A stretch of 64,000 bases of DNA from an uncultured Clostridia bacterium (GTDB lineage: Bacteria > Bacillota > Clostridia > Lachnospirales > CAG-274): the NCBI GenBank assembly GCA_947627425.1, contig CANQVZ010000001.1, positions 1 through 64,000 on the forward strand, in the 5' to 3' direction. The notes below the pieces were generated by a model. The model was not told where the DNA came from, did not search any database, and saw only the letters and a program-made list of their open reading frames with translations. The position numbers were made by a program, and so were the translations under genes. Of the stretch, positions 27,570 to 37,828 are shown piece after piece. How positions within the stretch are numbered: position 1 is the first letter of the stretch; each line of letters begins with the position of its first letter.

Positions 27570-28106
27570 ATGAAAAGAATTATAGGAATACTATTGTCGG
27601 TATTTATCGTTACGGGGCTTATGGCATCGCCCGCCTTTGCTATTCAGGATGATGTTAAGGTGGTTTATACAAATGAGCTGGAATGGCTCAAAAAGATAAA
27701 CAATTATAACCCCGAGGATATATTCGGCTATCAGATAGAATACTGCGTCTATGATATAGACAAGGACGGCATAAAGGAATTGCTCGTAAAAATGGGCACC
27801 TGCGAGGCGGACTATATAATAAGGGTGTATGGCTGCGAATACGGCAAGATAGTTTCGCTTGCCACTCTTGACGGCGGACATACCTATCCCTATGAGTGCG
27901 ATACCAACGGAATATTTATGTATTGGAGCCATATGGGCTGCGAAACATTGATGAGGGTATCAAAGCACGGACACGACCTCGTATCGGAAACTGTTTTTTC
28001 AAACGATCTCAATCCGCTTTTTGAAAAGGGCGTTGAAGACCCGTGGCACCAGCCCAAAAAGCCTATTGTTCTTTGCGCCGCCTATGACTACTCGGAATTG
28101 AAATAA
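27570..28106 (+). CDS. Small secreted protein of unknown function
   Basis: This 178-aa protein has a signal peptide with cleavage near AFAIQ. The mature part includes YDIDKDGIKELLVKMG, a calcium-binding-like pattern often seen in small secreted Firmicutes proteins that monitor or bind extracellular ligands. It also has three Cys. I do not recognise the family. It lies 24 nt after ilvD and 27 nt before ilvB and is probably co-transcribed with them. Confidence 0.75.
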   Translation: MKRIIGILLSVFIVTGLMASPAFAIQDDVKVVYTNELEWLKKINNYNPEDIFGYQIEYCVYDIDKDGIKELLVKMGTCEADYIIRVYGCEYGKIVSLATLDGGHTYPYECDTNGIFMYWSHMGCETLMRVSKHGHDLVSETVFSNDLNPLFEKGVEDPWHQPKKPIVLCAAYDYSELK

Positions 28107-30064: not shown

Positions 30065-30799
30065 ATGTTGTTGGATGTTCGTTTCAGTGTGGATGATATG
30101 GCGTCGAGCCATACCATTATGCTGGCTATAAGGGCTAAGGAGCCCGAAATAAATGTGGATAATCTCTTTATATCGGGAAGGTCTGTTAGGGAGATAACGG
30201 GCTTCAAGGGTGAAAGCTTAAGCGATTATTCGCCCGATGAGCTTAAAAATTCGAGAGCTATACCCGATTTTGACGCTATATCATATTCCTTTAACCGTCT
30301 TACGGACACCAAGCAGTGGGGAAGGGACAGCTCCGGCAAGACTGTCATACCCGCCATAGTCATAAAGACGGAGAACGGTTTTGTGGCGCCCATAATAACG
30401 GAAGGAAAGCTCCCGGAGCTTGCGCCGGAGGCAAAGCCCTTGTCGGGACTTAGGAGGATATTTGCCAACAGGGACGCTATCGAGGAAAATCAGATAGCCA
30501 TGATAGAGTATGAGAAAAGCGTGAGCGAAAGAGAAAAAATGATTGCCGTTAACAGAGGACTGGAGTATATAAACGAGGCGTCCAGGATATATGCAAAGTC
30601 GGCAAACAAGGTCGAGCTTACTGCCGAAGAAAAGGAGTTTATAAATAAGGGCAACATAAATATGCCGAGCGCAGCCGTGCGCCGCATAAACTTATCCGAG
30701 CTTAGCAGCAACAGGCAGTCCGCAAATAATGACATAGGTCTTACGGCAAGAAGTCCCGAAGCCGATAAAAAAGCACAGCAAAAAGATATGGGAATGTAA
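30065..30799 (+). CDS. Protein of unknown function, 244 aa
   Basis: The ATG follows GAGAAGGTG. There is no signal peptide or membrane helix. The N-terminal half looks globular and mixed alpha/beta (LLDVRFSVDDM; NLFISGRSVREITGF; DAISYSFNRLTDT). Residues ~140-190 look helical and charged (IEENQIAMIEYEKSVSEREKM). The C-terminus is polar, Gln/Ser/Lys-rich and probably disordered. I do not recognise a family. It is a single-gene unit with a dyad upstream and a terminator downstream. Confidence 0.7.
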   Translation: MLLDVRFSVDDMASSHTIMLAIRAKEPEINVDNLFISGRSVREITGFKGESLSDYSPDELKNSRAIPDFDAISYSFNRLTDTKQWGRDSSGKTVIPAIVIKTENGFVAPIITEGKLPELAPEAKPLSGLRRIFANRDAIEENQIAMIEYEKSVSEREKMIAVNRGLEYINEASRIYAKSANKVELTAEEKEFINKGNINMPSAAVRRINLSELSSNRQSANNDIGLTARSPEADKKAQQKDMGM

Positions 30800-30836
30800 A
30801 AAGCACCGATATCAAATTATCGGTGCTTTTAATTTA
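30797..30836. terminator. Bidirectional terminator between convergent genes
   Basis: aaaagcaccgat/atcggtgctttt separates the converging unknown gene and the lipoprotein gene, with A- and T-runs on both sides. It overlaps both stop codons closely. Confidence 0.9.
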
Positions 30837-32798
30837 CATAGTGGTGTTTTCCGTGGGCATATTGCCTCTTGGCATCCTGTTCCTGCCCATTCCTCCGTTC
30901 GGTCTTCCGACGCTGTTTGAAGTGACAACGGAGTTAAGAGTGAGCTTTGCGCTTTGTCCGCCTGCGCTTAAGGTATAGGTCTTGCCCTGCTTAAGATTAG
31001 GTGAGGTCACAACCACGGATTGATACGCCTTTGCGGGCGTAAATTGAGCTATAACCGTGCCGTTTTCATCCGTCAGGGTTATGCCTTCGCCGCCGTTTAT
31101 AACACTGTCAAAGCTATGGAGCACGGAGCACTGCTTTGAGCTTTCAGAAAATCCCTGAGCCATTCCCGCGCTGCCTGCCGCTATGACCGTTCCGCCCGTC
31201 ACGATAGCCTCTCTTTCGCAATCCAGAGCGGAGTTGCCGTTCTGCTCCGTTCCGCTTACATATACCGTTCCGCCGTCAACATATATATACCCGTTCGAGT
31301 CTATGCCGTCGCCTCCCGCGTCTACAGTTACATTTCCGCCCTTTATGCTTATGGTTACGCTTTCGGGCGCTGCGGTGTCGCTGCTTGCGTTTATGCCGTC
31401 ATCGGAGGAAACAACGCTTATGCTGCCGTCGCTTAAGGTTATATTTTCGCCCTCTATTCCCTCATATGAGCTTGCAACGGTTATATTTCCCGCGCTTATA
31501 TCTACAGCCTTGTCTGCGTGTATGGCGTCGTCGCCCGAATTGATCTCAAGGCTGCCTCCGCTTATGGATATATTTCCGCTGCTGTGCAGTGAGTCGTCCT
31601 CTGTGTCAAGCTTGAATGTACCGTCCTTTATTATGATGTCATTTCCGCTTTTAAGTCCCTTTTTGCTGTCGCTCTGCTCCTCGGATGTCATTTCGGATGC
31701 CGTTTCGTTTGTGTTTTGGGTCGTATTTTCCGATAAGGCTTCCCTTGGCTGTGCCGTCATTTTCTCCCCTGCATGTCTGCCAAAGCCTCCATTTGGCATA
31801 TCGGGTCTGCCGTTTTGCATATTTCCTCTGTCAAAGCCCTCGGGAGGAGCGGACGGAACACTGCCGTCAAAGTTCTTGGGCATAGCGCTGTCGTCAAAGC
31901 CTTCGGGCGGTGTGCCGTTGTGTACGCGGAAACCCATGTCGGGCATTGTCTGAGCTTTGTTTTTCTTGGCATTTTCACTTGTGCTGCCTTCGCCTGTTTT
32001 TACATTCACATTTCCGCCATCTGCAAGCAGTATATTTTCGCTCTGTATTCCGTCATTTCCCGAAGCTATATTTATATTTCCGCTCTTTATATAAACATAA
32101 CCTCTGTTTTCCTCTGTGCTGTCCGACTTTATGCCGTCCTCGCCCGCGGTTATGTCAATGCTGCCGCCGCCTATCTTAACGCAGTCCTTTCCTTCCATTC
32201 CCGTGTCGGGCGCGGATATTTTTATATTGCCTCCCGCTATAACAAGGTCGTCCTTTGACACTATGCCGTGCTTATAGTCCGTCTTTATGTCAAGAGCGCC
32301 CTCGCCGTTTAAAGTGAGGTCAGCCTTGCTGAATATAACTCCGTCCTCCTCGCCCGTATTGCTGCCCGATGAAAGTATGTTATTGCTGTTTTTTGCAAGC
32401 GTTATGAATACCTTGTCGGCATCCTTTATATCTATGGGAGCCATACTCTCGTTTTCTATTGTAACTCCCTCCAGCACTATCTGTACCTTTTTGTCGGGAG
32501 CGTTCACCGTTATCTGCGTGCCGCTCGCCTTTCCGTTCACAACATAACAGCCCTCGTCCGATATGGTCACTATACCGTCCTTAACAGCTGCGCCCTCCGC
32601 GCTTATGTTGCTGCCAAGAGTTATTATTTTTGATGTGCTTCTGTCATAGCTCCCGTCCGTATCTCTCTGTGTAAATTCCGTGTCTATATTTATATTCTTG
32701 GTCGTTTCAGCCTGCGCCGATGTGCCCGTGCAGCCCGAAAGAGGCATTGAAAGCACAAGCACCGTCAAAGGCACAGCCGCAATAATTTTAAACCTCAT
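30834..32798 (-). CDS. Cthe_2159-like (carbohydrate-binding-type) beta-helix lipoprotein
   Basis: I start this at the ATG at 32798, which has AAGGAG 8 nt upstream; a GTG three codons earlier is less likely. The product of about 654 aa has a lipoprotein signal with lipobox LSGC. The body is a run of short repeats (GGNIKISAPDTGMEGKD, GGSIDITAGEDGIKSD, GSLEINSGDDAIHADKA) typical of the Cthe_2159/PF14262 beta-helix family, which binds polysaccharide and calcium. A Pro/Gly/Met-rich insert occurs at ~290-360. The C-terminus is Gly/Asn/Arg/Met-rich. It is the last gene of a three-gene unit with DUF4956 and VTC proteins. Confidence 0.88.
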   Translation of the reverse strand: MRFKIIAAVPLTVLVLSMPLSGCTGTSAQAETTKNINIDTEFTQRDTDGSYDRSTSKIITLGSNISAEGAAVKDGIVTISDEGCYVVNGKASGTQITVNAPDKKVQIVLEGVTIENESMAPIDIKDADKVFITLAKNSNNILSSGSNTGEEDGVIFSKADLTLNGEGALDIKTDYKHGIVSKDDLVIAGGNIKISAPDTGMEGKDCVKIGGGSIDITAGEDGIKSDSTEENRGYVYIKSGNINIASGNDGIQSENILLADGGNVNVKTGEGSTSENAKKNKAQTMPDMGFRVHNGTPPEGFDDSAMPKNFDGSVPSAPPEGFDRGNMQNGRPDMPNGGFGRHAGEKMTAQPREALSENTTQNTNETASEMTSEEQSDSKKGLKSGNDIIIKDGTFKLDTEDDSLHSSGNISISGGSLEINSGDDAIHADKAVDISAGNITVASSYEGIEGENITLSDGSISVVSSDDGINASSDTAAPESVTISIKGGNVTVDAGGDGIDSNGYIYVDGGTVYVSGTEQNGNSALDCEREAIVTGGTVIAAGSAGMAQGFSESSKQCSVLHSFDSVINGGEGITLTDENGTVIAQFTPAKAYQSVVVTSPNLKQGKTYTLSAGGQSAKLTLNSVVTSNSVGRPNGGMGRNRMPRGNMPTENTTM

Positions 32799-32813
32799 AT
32801 TATTCACTCCTTT

Positions 32814-33503
32814 TTAAAGCTCCTCGCCCACGGCAGTTATCATACCGCAGGATATTTCAAGATTGCCGTTTCTGCATCTTAATTTGTCTATAAATTCCTT
32901 TTCCCTTGCGTTGTCCTTAAGCTCTATTTCATAGTTGAGAGAAAAAAGCGCGCCCATGTTGGTAGTCTTTACACTCATAAGCCTGTTTTTGGTAGTGTAT
33001 TCGCTCATAATATCGTCGAATACATCGGTATAGTCGAGGCTTTCGGGTATTGTTATCTTAAGATGCCTTATTCTGGGATTTTCCTCTCCGAAGCCCGTCA
33101 ACGCAAGCAACACGGAGAATAAGCCCGTAACAGCCACAAAAAGCAGCGCTATTGCTATATAGCCCGTTCCCGAAGCAAGCCCCGCTGTCATTGCCAAGAA
33201 TACGGAGGCTATATCCCTCGCGTTTCCCGGCACAGAACGGAACCGCACAAGACTGAAGGCGCCCATTATGGCTATTCCCGTGCCCATGTTTCCGTTCACC
33301 AGCATTATGACCACCTGGACCATAACGGGCAGAAGCGCAAGAGTACAGGCAAAGCCCCTTGAGCAGTGGTTTCTGAACCTATGTATAAAAGATATTGCAA
33401 CTCCCATAAAAAGAGAGCACAGCGTACACAGCATAAAATTGACCGTGCTGAAATCGGTATTGTTTATGCTTGCAAAGGATGTTGTAAATATATTGTCAAG
33501 CAC
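32814..33503 (-). CDS. DUF4956 family membrane protein
   Basis: This 229-aa protein has about four hydrophobic segments in residues ~20-140, including the family motif AIMGAFSLVRFRSVPGNARDIA, and a soluble C-terminal domain of ~85 residues (LKITIPESLDYTDVFDDI). DUF4956 has no assigned activity but repeatedly occurs beside VTC-type polyphosphate polymerase domains and CotH or Cthe_2159 proteins. It starts inside the end of the VTC gene with an 8-nt overlap. Confidence 0.9.
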   Translation of the reverse strand: MLDNIFTTSFASINNTDFSTVNFMLCTLCSLFMGVAISFIHRFRNHCSRGFACTLALLPVMVQVVIMLVNGNMGTGIAIMGAFSLVRFRSVPGNARDIASVFLAMTAGLASGTGYIAIALLFVAVTGLFSVLLALTGFGEENPRIRHLKITIPESLDYTDVFDDIMSEYTTKNRLMSVKTTNMGALFSLNYEIELKDNAREKEFIDKLRCRNGNLEISCGMITAVGEEL

Positions 33504-34218
33504 AGCAGAACACTTCCTTTCCTTTTCTGTTCATAAGCTCGGTATATGCCATACCGTATTTTGAAAATGAGCATTGCCTTATTTCCAGCTCGTCAAGAGC
33601 ACGGCAGAGATAATAGGGCAAGGCGTGGGGTATTTTTATTTCCATGAGAATGGTGCCGTCATCCATGAGCCTTTCGCCGAAACGCCCGTCGCTCAGTGAT
33701 GTCATATCGCTTCGCCAGGTGATGTTGCTGTCAAACGTTATCCTGAGTCCGCTGTCCTCTCTGCTGTCTATGGCTGTTCTGTCGTAGCCTATATACATTG
33801 CGGGATAAAGTCTGCCGTAAAACTCCATGAAATAGTCCAGCTCGTTTTTTATCTGCGAATCAATGGATATTTCCTTACCCTTGTATAGGTAATCGTAAGC
33901 CTCTGCGTAGCTTAAGTCTATGCGCCTTTTGTACACTATGCCGCGGTATTTCTTTTTAAGCTCTATGAATACCTCGCTGTCGGGCTCCGGAAGGGAATAG
34001 GAGCGAAGCCTGAGCTTTTCTTTGTATACGGGCTTTTCCAGCGACTGCCTTATGAGCCTGTAGTCCTCGGTGTCAAAATAGATGTTGTTTATTGAGGTTT
34101 TGGCGTATCTGTCGGGCACAAATCTGTCGCCTATTGCCTTTTTCAGTTCTTTATATTGCTCGGTATCGAGCATATATTTCTTTTCGTATCGCTCGAAAAC
34201 CTCTTGATTTATGAGCAT
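33496..34218 (-). CDS. VTC-domain (polyphosphate polymerase-like) protein
   Basis: This 240-aa soluble tunnel-fold (CYTH/VTC superfamily) protein shows RYEKKYMLD, SINNIYFDTED, YKEKLRLRSY, VFIELKKKYRGIVYKRR, IGYDRTA, LRITFDSNITWR and the late acidic site ILMEIKIP. These basic and acidic residues match the substrate and metal sites in yeast Vtc4. Yeast VTC makes polyphosphate, but bacterial relatives in this context are not characterised, so the activity is inferred. The RBS AAGGAG is good. It is the first gene of the minus-strand unit. Confidence 0.9.
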   Translation of the reverse strand: MLINQEVFERYEKKYMLDTEQYKELKKAIGDRFVPDRYAKTSINNIYFDTEDYRLIRQSLEKPVYKEKLRLRSYSLPEPDSEVFIELKKKYRGIVYKRRIDLSYAEAYDYLYKGKEISIDSQIKNELDYFMEFYGRLYPAMYIGYDRTAIDSREDSGLRITFDSNITWRSDMTSLSDGRFGERLMDDGTILMEIKIPHALPYYLCRALDELEIRQCSFSKYGMAYTELMNRKGKEVFCCA

Positions 34219-34280
34219 TTTTTATCATCTCCTTTTTCGCCTGTGACAAATACTCTAATGCATGAAAATTAAATGCGCTT

Positions 34281-34315
34281 TAATCAAAAATAAGAATTTG
34301 ATTAAAATTTGATTA
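34281..34315. promoter_or_regulatory. Three TTTGATTA sites in the VTC-pyk divergent region
   Basis: TAATCAAA (34281-34288) is followed by two direct TTTGATTA copies (34297-34304 and 34308-34315). The direct copies are spaced 11 bp apart, one helical turn, as expected for cooperative binding on one face of DNA. They could control either divergent gene. Confidence 0.45.
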
Positions 34316-34439
34316 TTTTCATAAAAATATATACAGGTATAAATTTTGTAAAAACATAAAAAAAGTGTAGAAATTTATATTGGTATATGTTAAAATATCA
34401 GTAATAGAACTATCGTGAATAAAAAAAGGAGAAGATATT

Positions 34440-36652: not shown

Positions 36653-37828
36653 ATGAAAAAAATCACAGCTTTTGTATTTATGCTTTTGATAATGCTTTGT
36701 TCTCTGTCTGCTTTTGCATATGCGGACGATTTGACCACGGTCATTTTCACTCTTGACAGAGCATCGGTAACGGTCAACGGAGTGGAAAAAAAGCTAGACA
36801 CTCCCGCGGTCGCCATAGAGGGCAGGACATATGTTCCCGTGAGAGGACTTGCGGAGGCTCTCGGAGGCACGGCAGGCTGGAACGAAGCCACAAGAACGGT
36901 AAATTTAAAGCACGGAAACGATGAAATAAGGCTTACAATAGACAGCATCATAGCTTTTTTAAACGGCGAGGAAAAGGACTTGGACGCTCCTCCCCTCATC
37001 ATTGACGGCAGAACTCTGCTCCCCGCCAGATTCATAGCGGAGGGCTTCGGCTATAGGGTCATATGGAATGCTAACAGAAAGACCGTGACCGTTACAAACG
37101 GCAGTTCGGATATAGTTATAGAGCCCACCACAGTTCAGACTACGGCAAAGCCTGTTGCCCAGCCAACGACTGTTAAAGCTGCCGAGCCTACGACGGCAAA
37201 GCCCGTTGCACAGCCAACGACCGTTAAGGCTGCCGAGCCTACGACTGTAAAGCCAACACAGCCTGCGACCGTGAAGGAGCCTGCCGCAGAGATCACAACA
37301 AGCTCTGCTCCGCTTAGGGACAAGCTCATATTCGGTCCGGGTCCCGTAATTAATCCCAATGCGCCCAAGAGCGGTACTCTGGTGCTCTATTTTTCAAAGA
37401 CGGGCACTACACAGAGGATAGCCGAAATAATAGGCAGACTTACGGGCGCCGATGTCATAAAGCTTGAAACCGTACTTCCTTATCCGTCGGATTATAATAT
37501 GCTGATGGATATGGCGCAGAAGGAAAAAATATCGGGCGCGCGTCCCGAGCTCAAAACCAACATAAAAAATCTGGCGTATTACGACACTGTATACATAGGC
37601 TATCCCATATGGCTTGAAACAATGCCCATGGCTATGTTTACATTCATAGAAAACAACGACCTTAGCGGCAAAACAATAATACCGTTCTGCACTCACATGG
37701 GCTCGGGGCTTGGCAGCAGTGTCAAGGATATAAAGGCAGCGCTCCCCGACAGCGATGTAAAGGACGGCTTTGCGTGCAATGCTTCCACCACGGAGCAGGA
37801 AATAAAAAATCTCATAGGAAATTATTAA
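36653..37828 (+). CDS. Exported protein: two copper-amine-oxidase-N-like repeats fused to a flavodoxin domain
   Basis: This 391-aa protein has a signal peptide ending AFAYADD. Two tandem Cu_amine_oxidN1-like stalk units follow: VNGVEKKLDTPAVAIEGRTYVPVRGLAEALG and LNGEEKDLDAPPLIIDGRTLLPARFIAEGFG, about 30-145. Then comes a Thr/Pro/Ala-rich linker with a 14-residue repeat (~160-220). The C-terminal ~155 residues are a flavodoxin: LVLYFSKTGTTQRIAE (phosphate loop), PYPSDYNMLMDMAQKE, IGYPIWLETMPM and FCTHMGSGLGSS. The domain is complete. Flavodoxins normally act in the cytoplasm, so export is unusual; extracytoplasmic electron transfer is an inference. It is monocistronic. Confidence 0.9.
   Translation: MKKITAFVFMLLIMLCSLSAFAYADDLTTVIFTLDRASVTVNGVEKKLDTPAVAIEGRTYVPVRGLAEALGGTAGWNEATRTVNLKHGNDEIRLTIDSIIAFLNGEEKDLDAPPLIIDGRTLLPARFIAEGFGYRVIWNANRKTVTVTNGSSDIVIEPTTVQTTAKPVAQPTTVKAAEPTTAKPVAQPTTVKAAEPTTVKPTQPATVKEPAAEITTSSAPLRDKLIFGPGPVINPNAPKSGTLVLYFSKTGTTQRIAEIIGRLTGADVIKLETVLPYPSDYNMLMDMAQKEKISGARPELKTNIKNLAYYDTVYIGYPIWLETMPMAMFTFIENNDLSGKTIIPFCTHMGSGLGSSVKDIKAALPDSDVKDGFACNASTTEQEIKNLIGNY

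Follow-up and report, generated by a model that had tools for sequence, protein, structure and literature searches.

A conserved VTC-DUF4956 gene pair with an exchangeable surface-protein partner in Clostridia, and its possible role in polyphosphate synthesis

The tunnel domain of Vtc4, part of the yeast VTC complex (PDB 3G3Q/3G3R, 8I6V), is among the closest known counterparts of the bacterial VTC domain. In yeast, synthesis by Vtc4 is coupled to translocation through the membrane helices of its partners (PMC9911596), so cooperation of a tunnel enzyme with a membrane partner has a precedent. In bacteria, related genes are known from larger loci: in streptococci, clostridia and bifidobacteria, Pel loci have CotH-PPP-DUF4956 among their accessory genes (PMC7112168), and NELoc-2 of C. 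perfringens carries VTC, CotH, HEAT and GT genes (PMC2879425; PMC11677781). The VTC-DUF4956-CotH gene set has been published before, as accessory genes of Pel and NELoc-2 with no function assigned, and our literature search found no assay or biochemical study of the bacterial VTC-DUF4956 pair.

Here, the window is the whole stretch of 64,000 nucleotides that was analysed, and three of its minus-strand genes form one operon: VTC (PF09359), DUF4956 (PF16316) and a Cthe_2159 β-helix lipoprotein (PF14262). The first gene encodes a VTC-domain protein of 240 aa (33496..34218, minus strand) and has a Shine-Dalgarno sequence, AAAAAGGAG, read from the sequence at 34229..34237 on the same strand. It overlaps by 8 nt (33496-33503) the gene for a DUF4956 membrane protein of 229 aa, which has a GTG start (32814..33503, minus strand). 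The third gene, for a 654-aa right-handed beta-helix lipoprotein of the Cthe_2159 family (30834..32798, minus strand), follows after a gap of 15 nt when the ATG at 32798 is taken as its start. This ATG is preferred over the GTG at 32807, because the GTG sits on the Shine-Dalgarno sequence of the gene, AAAAGGAG (32807..32814, minus strand, also read from the sequence). The initial annotation had described three coupled genes with this overlap and a gap of about 15 nt, and all were found where it had placed them. A strong intrinsic terminator hairpin lies 3' of the third gene (30798..30830, minus strand; RNA fold -17.9 kcal/mol, z -7.8), in an orientation that also suits a convergent gene on the plus strand. 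Inspection by eye upstream of the operon revealed no convincing Pho-box, and a conserved upstream block may belong to the promoter of a divergent pyruvate kinase gene. An NCBIfam search returned zero matches.

The product of the first gene matches the Pfam VTC profile with an E-value of 3.2e-39 (135.3 bits against a cut-off of 23) and Vtc4 by profile with 3.8e-20. It is a cytoplasmic triphosphate-tunnel (Vtc4-like) domain that lacks an SPX domain and any transmembrane segment, and in this it differs from Vtc4, which has the SPX domain and fused membrane helices. Its AF2 model (pLDDT 95.3) superimposes on Vtc4 bound to AppNHp-Mn2+ (3G3R, VIA) with a Z of 19.1, an rmsd of 2.9 and 26% identity over 220 aligned residues, whereas TTM enzymes outside the VTC family reach a Z of at most 14.8. 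A Foldseek search with the model also retrieved the Vtc4-like tunnel fold (E 4.1e-13). Among 74 relatives, R10, K14, R70, R72, K88, K97, R147, R159, E193 and K195 are invariant, and these include the counterparts of R264/R266, K281, K294, R361 and R373 of Vtc4; E193 and K195 form an E-x-K motif. K220, matched to the catalytic K458 of Vtc4, is kept in 73 of the 74. This mapping was made partly by profile alignment, and E193, K195 and K220, which lie in the C-terminal part, were placed by motif. The basic and acidic tunnel residues thus correspond to those of Vtc4, in agreement with the initial annotation, which had seen a soluble polyphosphate-polymerase-like domain and had named the absence of basic tunnel residues as evidence against its reading.

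A polymerase would be expected to lack the acidic patch of the hydrolases. Tripolyphosphatases carry metal-binding glutamates at four positions (Glu-2, 4, 90 and 171 of AtTTM3; PMC4641920), and in the window's VTC protein three of these are basic (R10, K97 and K195), as in Vtc4. In addition, the equivalent of K458, catalytic in Vtc4, matters little in the hydrolase AtTTM3 (PMC4641920). The fourth position is occupied by the invariant E12; it aligns with the Glu-4 found in hydrolytic TTM enzymes, a site at which Thr198 stands in Vtc4, and the active site is therefore not purely Vtc4-like. The conservation of E12 as in TTM phosphatases would suit a reading in which VTC is a triphosphate hydrolase or sensor and DUF4956 an MgtC-like signalling protein, the two jointly tuning ATP or phosphate metabolism when a neighbouring two-component system reports surface or cation stress. 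The three basic positions argue against this reading, which we regard as unlikely, and polymerase rather than hydrolase activity is what we infer for VTC.

The second protein, which the initial annotation called a membrane protein of unknown function, is indeed a DUF4956 protein (E 4.5e-14, 53 bits against a cut-off of 30.6), and a relation that the annotation lacked can now be supplied. It has five membrane helices followed by a C-terminal ferredoxin/ACT-like domain (model pLDDT 82.9). Comparison of profiles with hhalign aligned DUF4956 to MgtC over 223 columns (prob 97, E 1.2e-10), while nine control families gave a prob of at most 0.5. The membrane part alone (E 4.9e-5, prob 68) and the C-terminal part alone (E 1.2e-4, prob 55) also aligned, and controls with swapped domain pairs and with reversed MgtC were negative. 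These profile comparisons indicate that DUF4956 is homologous to MgtC along its whole length, a relation that is new here. The two share their domain order with MgtC/SapB (PF02308; C-terminal domain 2LQJ), but DUF4956 lacks the RPAGLRT-type motif and has instead a conserved GA(FS)xVRFR motif in which G81, R87, F88 and R89 are invariant. The window's DUF4956 does not match Pfam MgtC (PF02308) at E <= 0.001 and two relatives hit that profile at about 1e-4, under the curated cut-off; DUF4956 is for this reason described as a remote relative of MgtC and not as MgtC proper. A fold search was set aside as support for this kinship, since it matched only the ferredoxin/ACT-like domain and 2LQJ (Z 8.1) was one among many unrelated proteins that score alike; the support comes from the profile comparison. 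An MgtC-like protein with an ACT-like domain would also be in keeping with the signalling role considered above.

The initial annotation had proposed a comparison of gene neighbourhoods across Clostridia and had held that a lack of co-occurrence in other genomes would count against a functional module. In 246 genomes of the order, VTC and DUF4956 occur together in 158, VTC alone in 2, DUF4956 alone in 1 and neither in 85. DUF4956 lies directly downstream on the same strand for 163 of the 169 VTC genes in related loci, and the overlap of 8 nt is the commonest spacing (58 of the 163), so that the arrangement is far beyond chance. Further support came from mirror-tree correlations with VTC, which are 0.94 for DUF4956, 0.68 for the histidine kinase, 0.50 for Cthe_2159 and 0.26 for the response regulator. 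VTC and DUF4956 are one conserved, near-obligate and co-evolving unit, and this core is present also in Bacilli and Actinomycetota. A search of viral contigs for relatives found none, leaving a viral origin unsupported. A histidine kinase and a response regulator lie near 58 of the 169 VTC genes, as the hydrolase or sensor reading would have it, but in both the covariation with VTC is far weaker than in DUF4956, and neither adjoins the trio in the window.

The third protein matches the Cthe_2159 profile in three stretches (E 1e-88, 297 bits) and carries a signal peptide with the lipobox LSGC, read from its sequence, so the surface beta-helix lipoprotein of the initial annotation is borne out. 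Its beta-helix domain aligns with Cthe_2159 of Clostridium thermocellum (PDB 4PEU/4PHB; phmmer to 4PEU, E 2.4e-28 over about 200 residues), the one member of the family with known binding, to cellulose and polygalacturonate (PMC6712302). The window protein differs in being longer, in being a predicted lipoprotein and in being split by a Met/Pro/Gly/Asp-rich segment (MPDMGFRVHNGTPPEGFDDSAMP...PPEGFDRGNMQNGRPDMPNGGFGRHAGEK; 31749..31946, minus strand). Cthe_2159 is the third gene in 47 of the 80 loci of a second set and in about a third of the first set, and it is found in Paenibacillus too. Many loci lack it, and many have no recognised third gene. In 15 of 90 loci the pair is followed by a CotHb gene, usually with genes for an exported 739-aa protein, a HEAT-repeat protein and a family-2 glycosyltransferase; this subtype forms one starred clade. 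The third slot is taken alternatively by Cthe_2159 or a CotH kinase, with several swaps, which is new here. The products of both often have a Met/Pro/Gly-rich segment in common; such a segment occurs in only 3 of 82 sensor kinases, and no claim is made from this. CotH had been described as often accompanying the trio and as absent here. Its absence holds, since the whole genome contains no CotH above the Pfam cut-off, but CotH usually replaces Cthe_2159, and the earlier picture has to be revised to one of two core genes plus an exchangeable surface protein.

The looser co-evolution of Cthe_2159 with VTC, the many loci without it and the cellulose and pectin binding of its characterised member would fit a third gene that is merely co-transcribed and has a separate job, the binding of plant polysaccharide in the gut, with VTC-DUF4956 as the only functional unit. 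The recurrence of Cthe_2159 in third position, as far as Paenibacillus, and the same-slot swaps with CotH and common segment argue for a shared role, and we consider a separate job very unlikely.

The glycosyltransferase genes that are often found in CotH-type loci point to exopolysaccharide rather than to polyphosphate storage. VTC-DUF4956 might assist in modifying surface polysaccharides or surface proteins. It would make or hydrolyse short phosphoanhydrides (tripolyphosphate, polyphosphate) that donate phosphoryl groups to, or regulate, an exported kinase (CotH) or the assembly of glycans; Cthe_2159, where it replaces CotH, would bind the modified polymer, and bulk polyphosphate would be beside the point. 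The Pel and NELoc-2 loci, which carry the pair with CotH, and the ligands of Cthe_2159 are consistent with this, as is the co-occurrence of PPK1 with VTC. The window shares only the VTC-DUF4956 core with those loci; its third gene is not CotH, and no glycosyltransferase, kinase, HEAT or Pel gene stands beside the trio. These absences and the Vtc4 tunnel residues, the K458 equivalent included, weigh against an accessory role, which we hold to be possible but doubtful.

PPK1, a polyphosphate kinase of an unrelated family with the same proposed product, is encoded elsewhere in the same genome, which thus has a route to polyphosphate in any case. VTC and PPK1 are positively associated in the order (odds ratio 5.9; 246 genomes, uncorrected for phylogeny), and we reject the idea that VTC replaces PPK1.

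The reading that we tentatively prefer, as a real possibility short of a probable one, is a membrane-coupled polyphosphate polymerase (VTC-DUF4956) that feeds a surface protein. Catalysis would fall to VTC, in whose soluble tunnel the terminal phosphate of ATP would be transferred to a lengthening chain. DUF4956, with its five MgtC-superfamily helices and cytoplasmic ACT-like domain, would contact VTC, serve as both its anchor and its regulator on the cytoplasmic side of the membrane, and perhaps also move the chain to the outside. The third gene would add an exported protein that acts on the product at the cell surface, retains it there or relies on it; in the window this would be the beta-helix lipoprotein, from a family with affinity for acidic polysaccharide, and elsewhere a CotH kinase. 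The Vtc4 fold and residues, the three basic positions, the pairing and the yeast precedent were counted for a polymerase. E12, the presence of PPK1, the glycosyltransferase genes of CotH-type loci and the missing third genes were counted against it, together with the nature of MgtC proteins, none of which is known to us to transport a polymer. The polymer-making system of the initial annotation is in this sense partly supported, through the Vtc4-like tunnel and the conserved unit. A bolder version, which we consider rather unlikely, would equate VTC-DUF4956 in bacteria with the VTC complex of eukaryotes. Both pair a tunnel enzyme with a membrane partner, which is of Vtc1-type helices in yeast and MgtC-like here; the MgtC-type protein would thread polyphosphate out, to be used by CotH as a phosphoryl donor where ATP does not reach and by Cthe_2159 as a scaffold bridged by cations.

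The VTC-DUF4956 unit, common in gut Clostridia, is present in about two thirds of the genomes sampled from this order. Should VTC and DUF4956 together produce polyphosphate and export it, bacteria would have a second system for this polymer, membrane-coupled as in yeast. This would give DUF4956 and, by kinship, MgtC a biochemical setting, and it might explain how secreted CotH-like kinases are supplied with phosphate outside the cell.

VTC and DUF4956 behave as a unit across the order. VTC is found in 160 and DUF4956 in 159 of 246 same-order genomes: 158 encode both, three just one and 85 neither. In control genomes, both were detected in the identical 3 of 14. In 163 of 169 VTC loci (one duplicate left out), DUF4956 comes immediately after VTC in the same orientation, which bears out the co-occurrence elsewhere anticipated by the initial annotation, and an 8-nt overlap is the commonest spacing (58/163). 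Among 31 loci with a full set of partners, pairwise DUF4956 distances correlate with VTC distances at r = 0.94; correlations with VTC are lower for the nearby histidine kinase (0.68), Cthe_2159 (0.50) and the response regulator (0.26). The pair also occurs in Paenibacillus, Planococcus, Enterococcus faecalis and Nonomuraea; in the last, DUF4956 and CotH were annotated by ORF calling, and the VTC match came from tblastn, just before and across the called DUF4956 start. An E. faecalis plasmid record (L183:4995-10122) carries an uninterrupted VTC-DUF4956-response regulator-histidine kinase-CotH array.

In the window, the three minus-strand genes first described from sequence were all found in place: VTC (33496-34218); DUF4956 (32814-33503), which has a GTG start and shares the 8-nt overlap; and a Cthe_2159-family lipoprotein gene (30834-32798). 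The likely start of the third is ATG 32798, as the Shine-Dalgarno sequence overlaps GTG 32807; the preceding gap is therefore 15 nt, as originally estimated. The operon ends in a strong terminator hairpin (30798-30830; -17.9 kcal/mol, z -7.8), which is shared by a convergent gene (30065-30799, plus strand) encoding a 244-residue protein with no Pfam family. Upstream lies a divergent pyruvate kinase gene. In the intervening region (34219-34439), a block of approximately 40 bp, AAATTTCTACACTTTTTTTATGTTTTTACAAAATTTATACC, is nearly identical in a related locus (L072), despite identities of only 55% for VTC and 66% for DUF4956; it is a candidate promoter or operator, of either pyruvate kinase or the VTC operon. 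Of two further plus-strand genes nearby, one (36653-37828) encodes an exported protein, apparently a secreted flavodoxin, in which a Flavodoxin_4 domain is joined to a pair of copper amine oxidase N-terminal domains. The other (27570-28106) adjoins an acetolactate-synthase-like gene, and its 178-residue product starts with a signal-peptide-like stretch and matches no Pfam family. The genome is 2.1 Mb; of the named relatives identified, the nearest is an uncultured Clostridia MAG from a 'Lapin' set (89% VTC identity).

The AF2 model of VTC (pLDDT 95.3) aligns with nucleotide- and Mn2+-bound yeast Vtc4 (Z 19.1, rmsd 2.9, 220 residues, 26% identity), whereas TTM enzymes outside the VTC family reach Z ≤ 14.8. 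The basic tunnel residues expected by the initial annotation are present; R10, E12, K14, K68, R70, R72, E86, K88, K97, R147, R159, E193 and K195 are invariant in 74 relatives, and K220 is kept in 73. Profile alignment pairs R10 with R196 of Vtc4, K14 with K200, R70/R72 with R264/R266, K88 with K281, K97 with K294, R147 with R361 and R159 with R373. E193, K195 and K220 lie past its end and were matched by motif to E426, K428 and K458; Vtc4 numbering follows the full-length chain. In the tripolyphosphatase AtTTM3, four glutamates occupy the positions of the basic residues that guide the chain out of Vtc4, and mutating the counterpart of catalytic K458 barely affects this hydrolase (PMC4641920). 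Three of these four positions are basic in the window protein and the fourth is E12, which aligns with Thr198 of Vtc4. Thus, the active site looks polymerase-like, without being identical to that of Vtc4.

DUF4956 is modelled as five membrane helices plus a ferredoxin/ACT-like domain. The Pfam MgtC model matches DUF4956 genes in two related genomes at ~1e-4, below cut-off, at the coordinates of the DUF4956 matches. An hhalign comparison of DUF4956 (75 proteins) with MgtC (six) gave probability 97 over 223 columns (E 1.2e-10); for nine unrelated families taken from these loci, the probability was ≤ 0.5. The membrane and C-terminal parts each match their counterparts (E 4.9e-5 and 1.2e-4), while swapped parts and reversed MgtC do not match. 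In the searched passages of open-access papers that name DUF4956, no MgtC link was found. The sole invariant columns are G81, R87, F88, R89 and G108; R87/R89 end the third membrane helix and would be cytoplasmic if the C-terminal domain is.

The third slot, the position after the pair, is variable. Cthe_2159 follows in 29/90 loci of one sample and 47/80 of another; in the first, CotH type a follows in 16/90 and CotH type b in 15/90. Cthe_2159 and type a alternate within well-supported VTC-tree clades (10 and 5 changes), and all third-slot labels need 19 changes versus 51.7 when shuffled. Type b forms one clade, and its downstream neighbours usually encode an exported protein, a HEAT-repeat protein and a family-2 glycosyltransferase. 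A Met/Pro/Gly/Asp-rich segment, with a threshold chosen by eye on the first sample, is common to the unrelated type a (13/17) and Cthe_2159 (32/71) proteins, compared to 1/148 other exported proteins and 0/17 of type b; the second sample gave 19/48 for Cthe_2159 and 0/373 for others. Separately, a MacB-like ABC transporter permease at a CotH-type locus (L052:3577-5115) bears the same Met/Pro/Gly-rich segment as CotH and Cthe_2159. Two loci without a third gene encode, directly upstream of VTC, a 216-residue membrane-anchored protein with no Pfam family and a weaker Pro/Met-rich stretch (L079:6526-7176; L080:9244-9894). In Acetoanaerobium (L187:4926-8048), the third gene after VTC-DUF4956 is phospholipase-D/cardiolipin-synthase-like.

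Published accounts of Pel and NELoc-2 loci include VTC-DUF4956-CotH but assign it no function (PMC7112168; PMC2879425). The open-access literature yielded no description of Cthe_2159 as an alternative to CotH, of the relation between DUF4956 and MgtC, of the order-wide, near-obligate pairing or of the common segment, which is weak evidence as only that literature was searched. The main rival explanation, that the pair serves exopolysaccharide or surface-protein modification, draws on the association of related pairs with Pel and other glycosyltransferase genes (PMC7112168; PMC2879425; PMC11677781). In the preferred reading, VTC and DUF4956 probably form a membrane-bound enzyme that would use ATP to make polyphosphate, which the surface protein would hold or act on. 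The yeast VTC complex offers a precedent: its tunnel lies above a membrane channel, and synthesis and passage are coupled (PMC9911596). Polyphosphate synthesis and surface modification are not mutually exclusive. Within this large, uncharacterised group the window copy is unexceptional; as PPK1 is also encoded in its genome, VTC-DUF4956 would serve a distinct purpose and not bulk storage.
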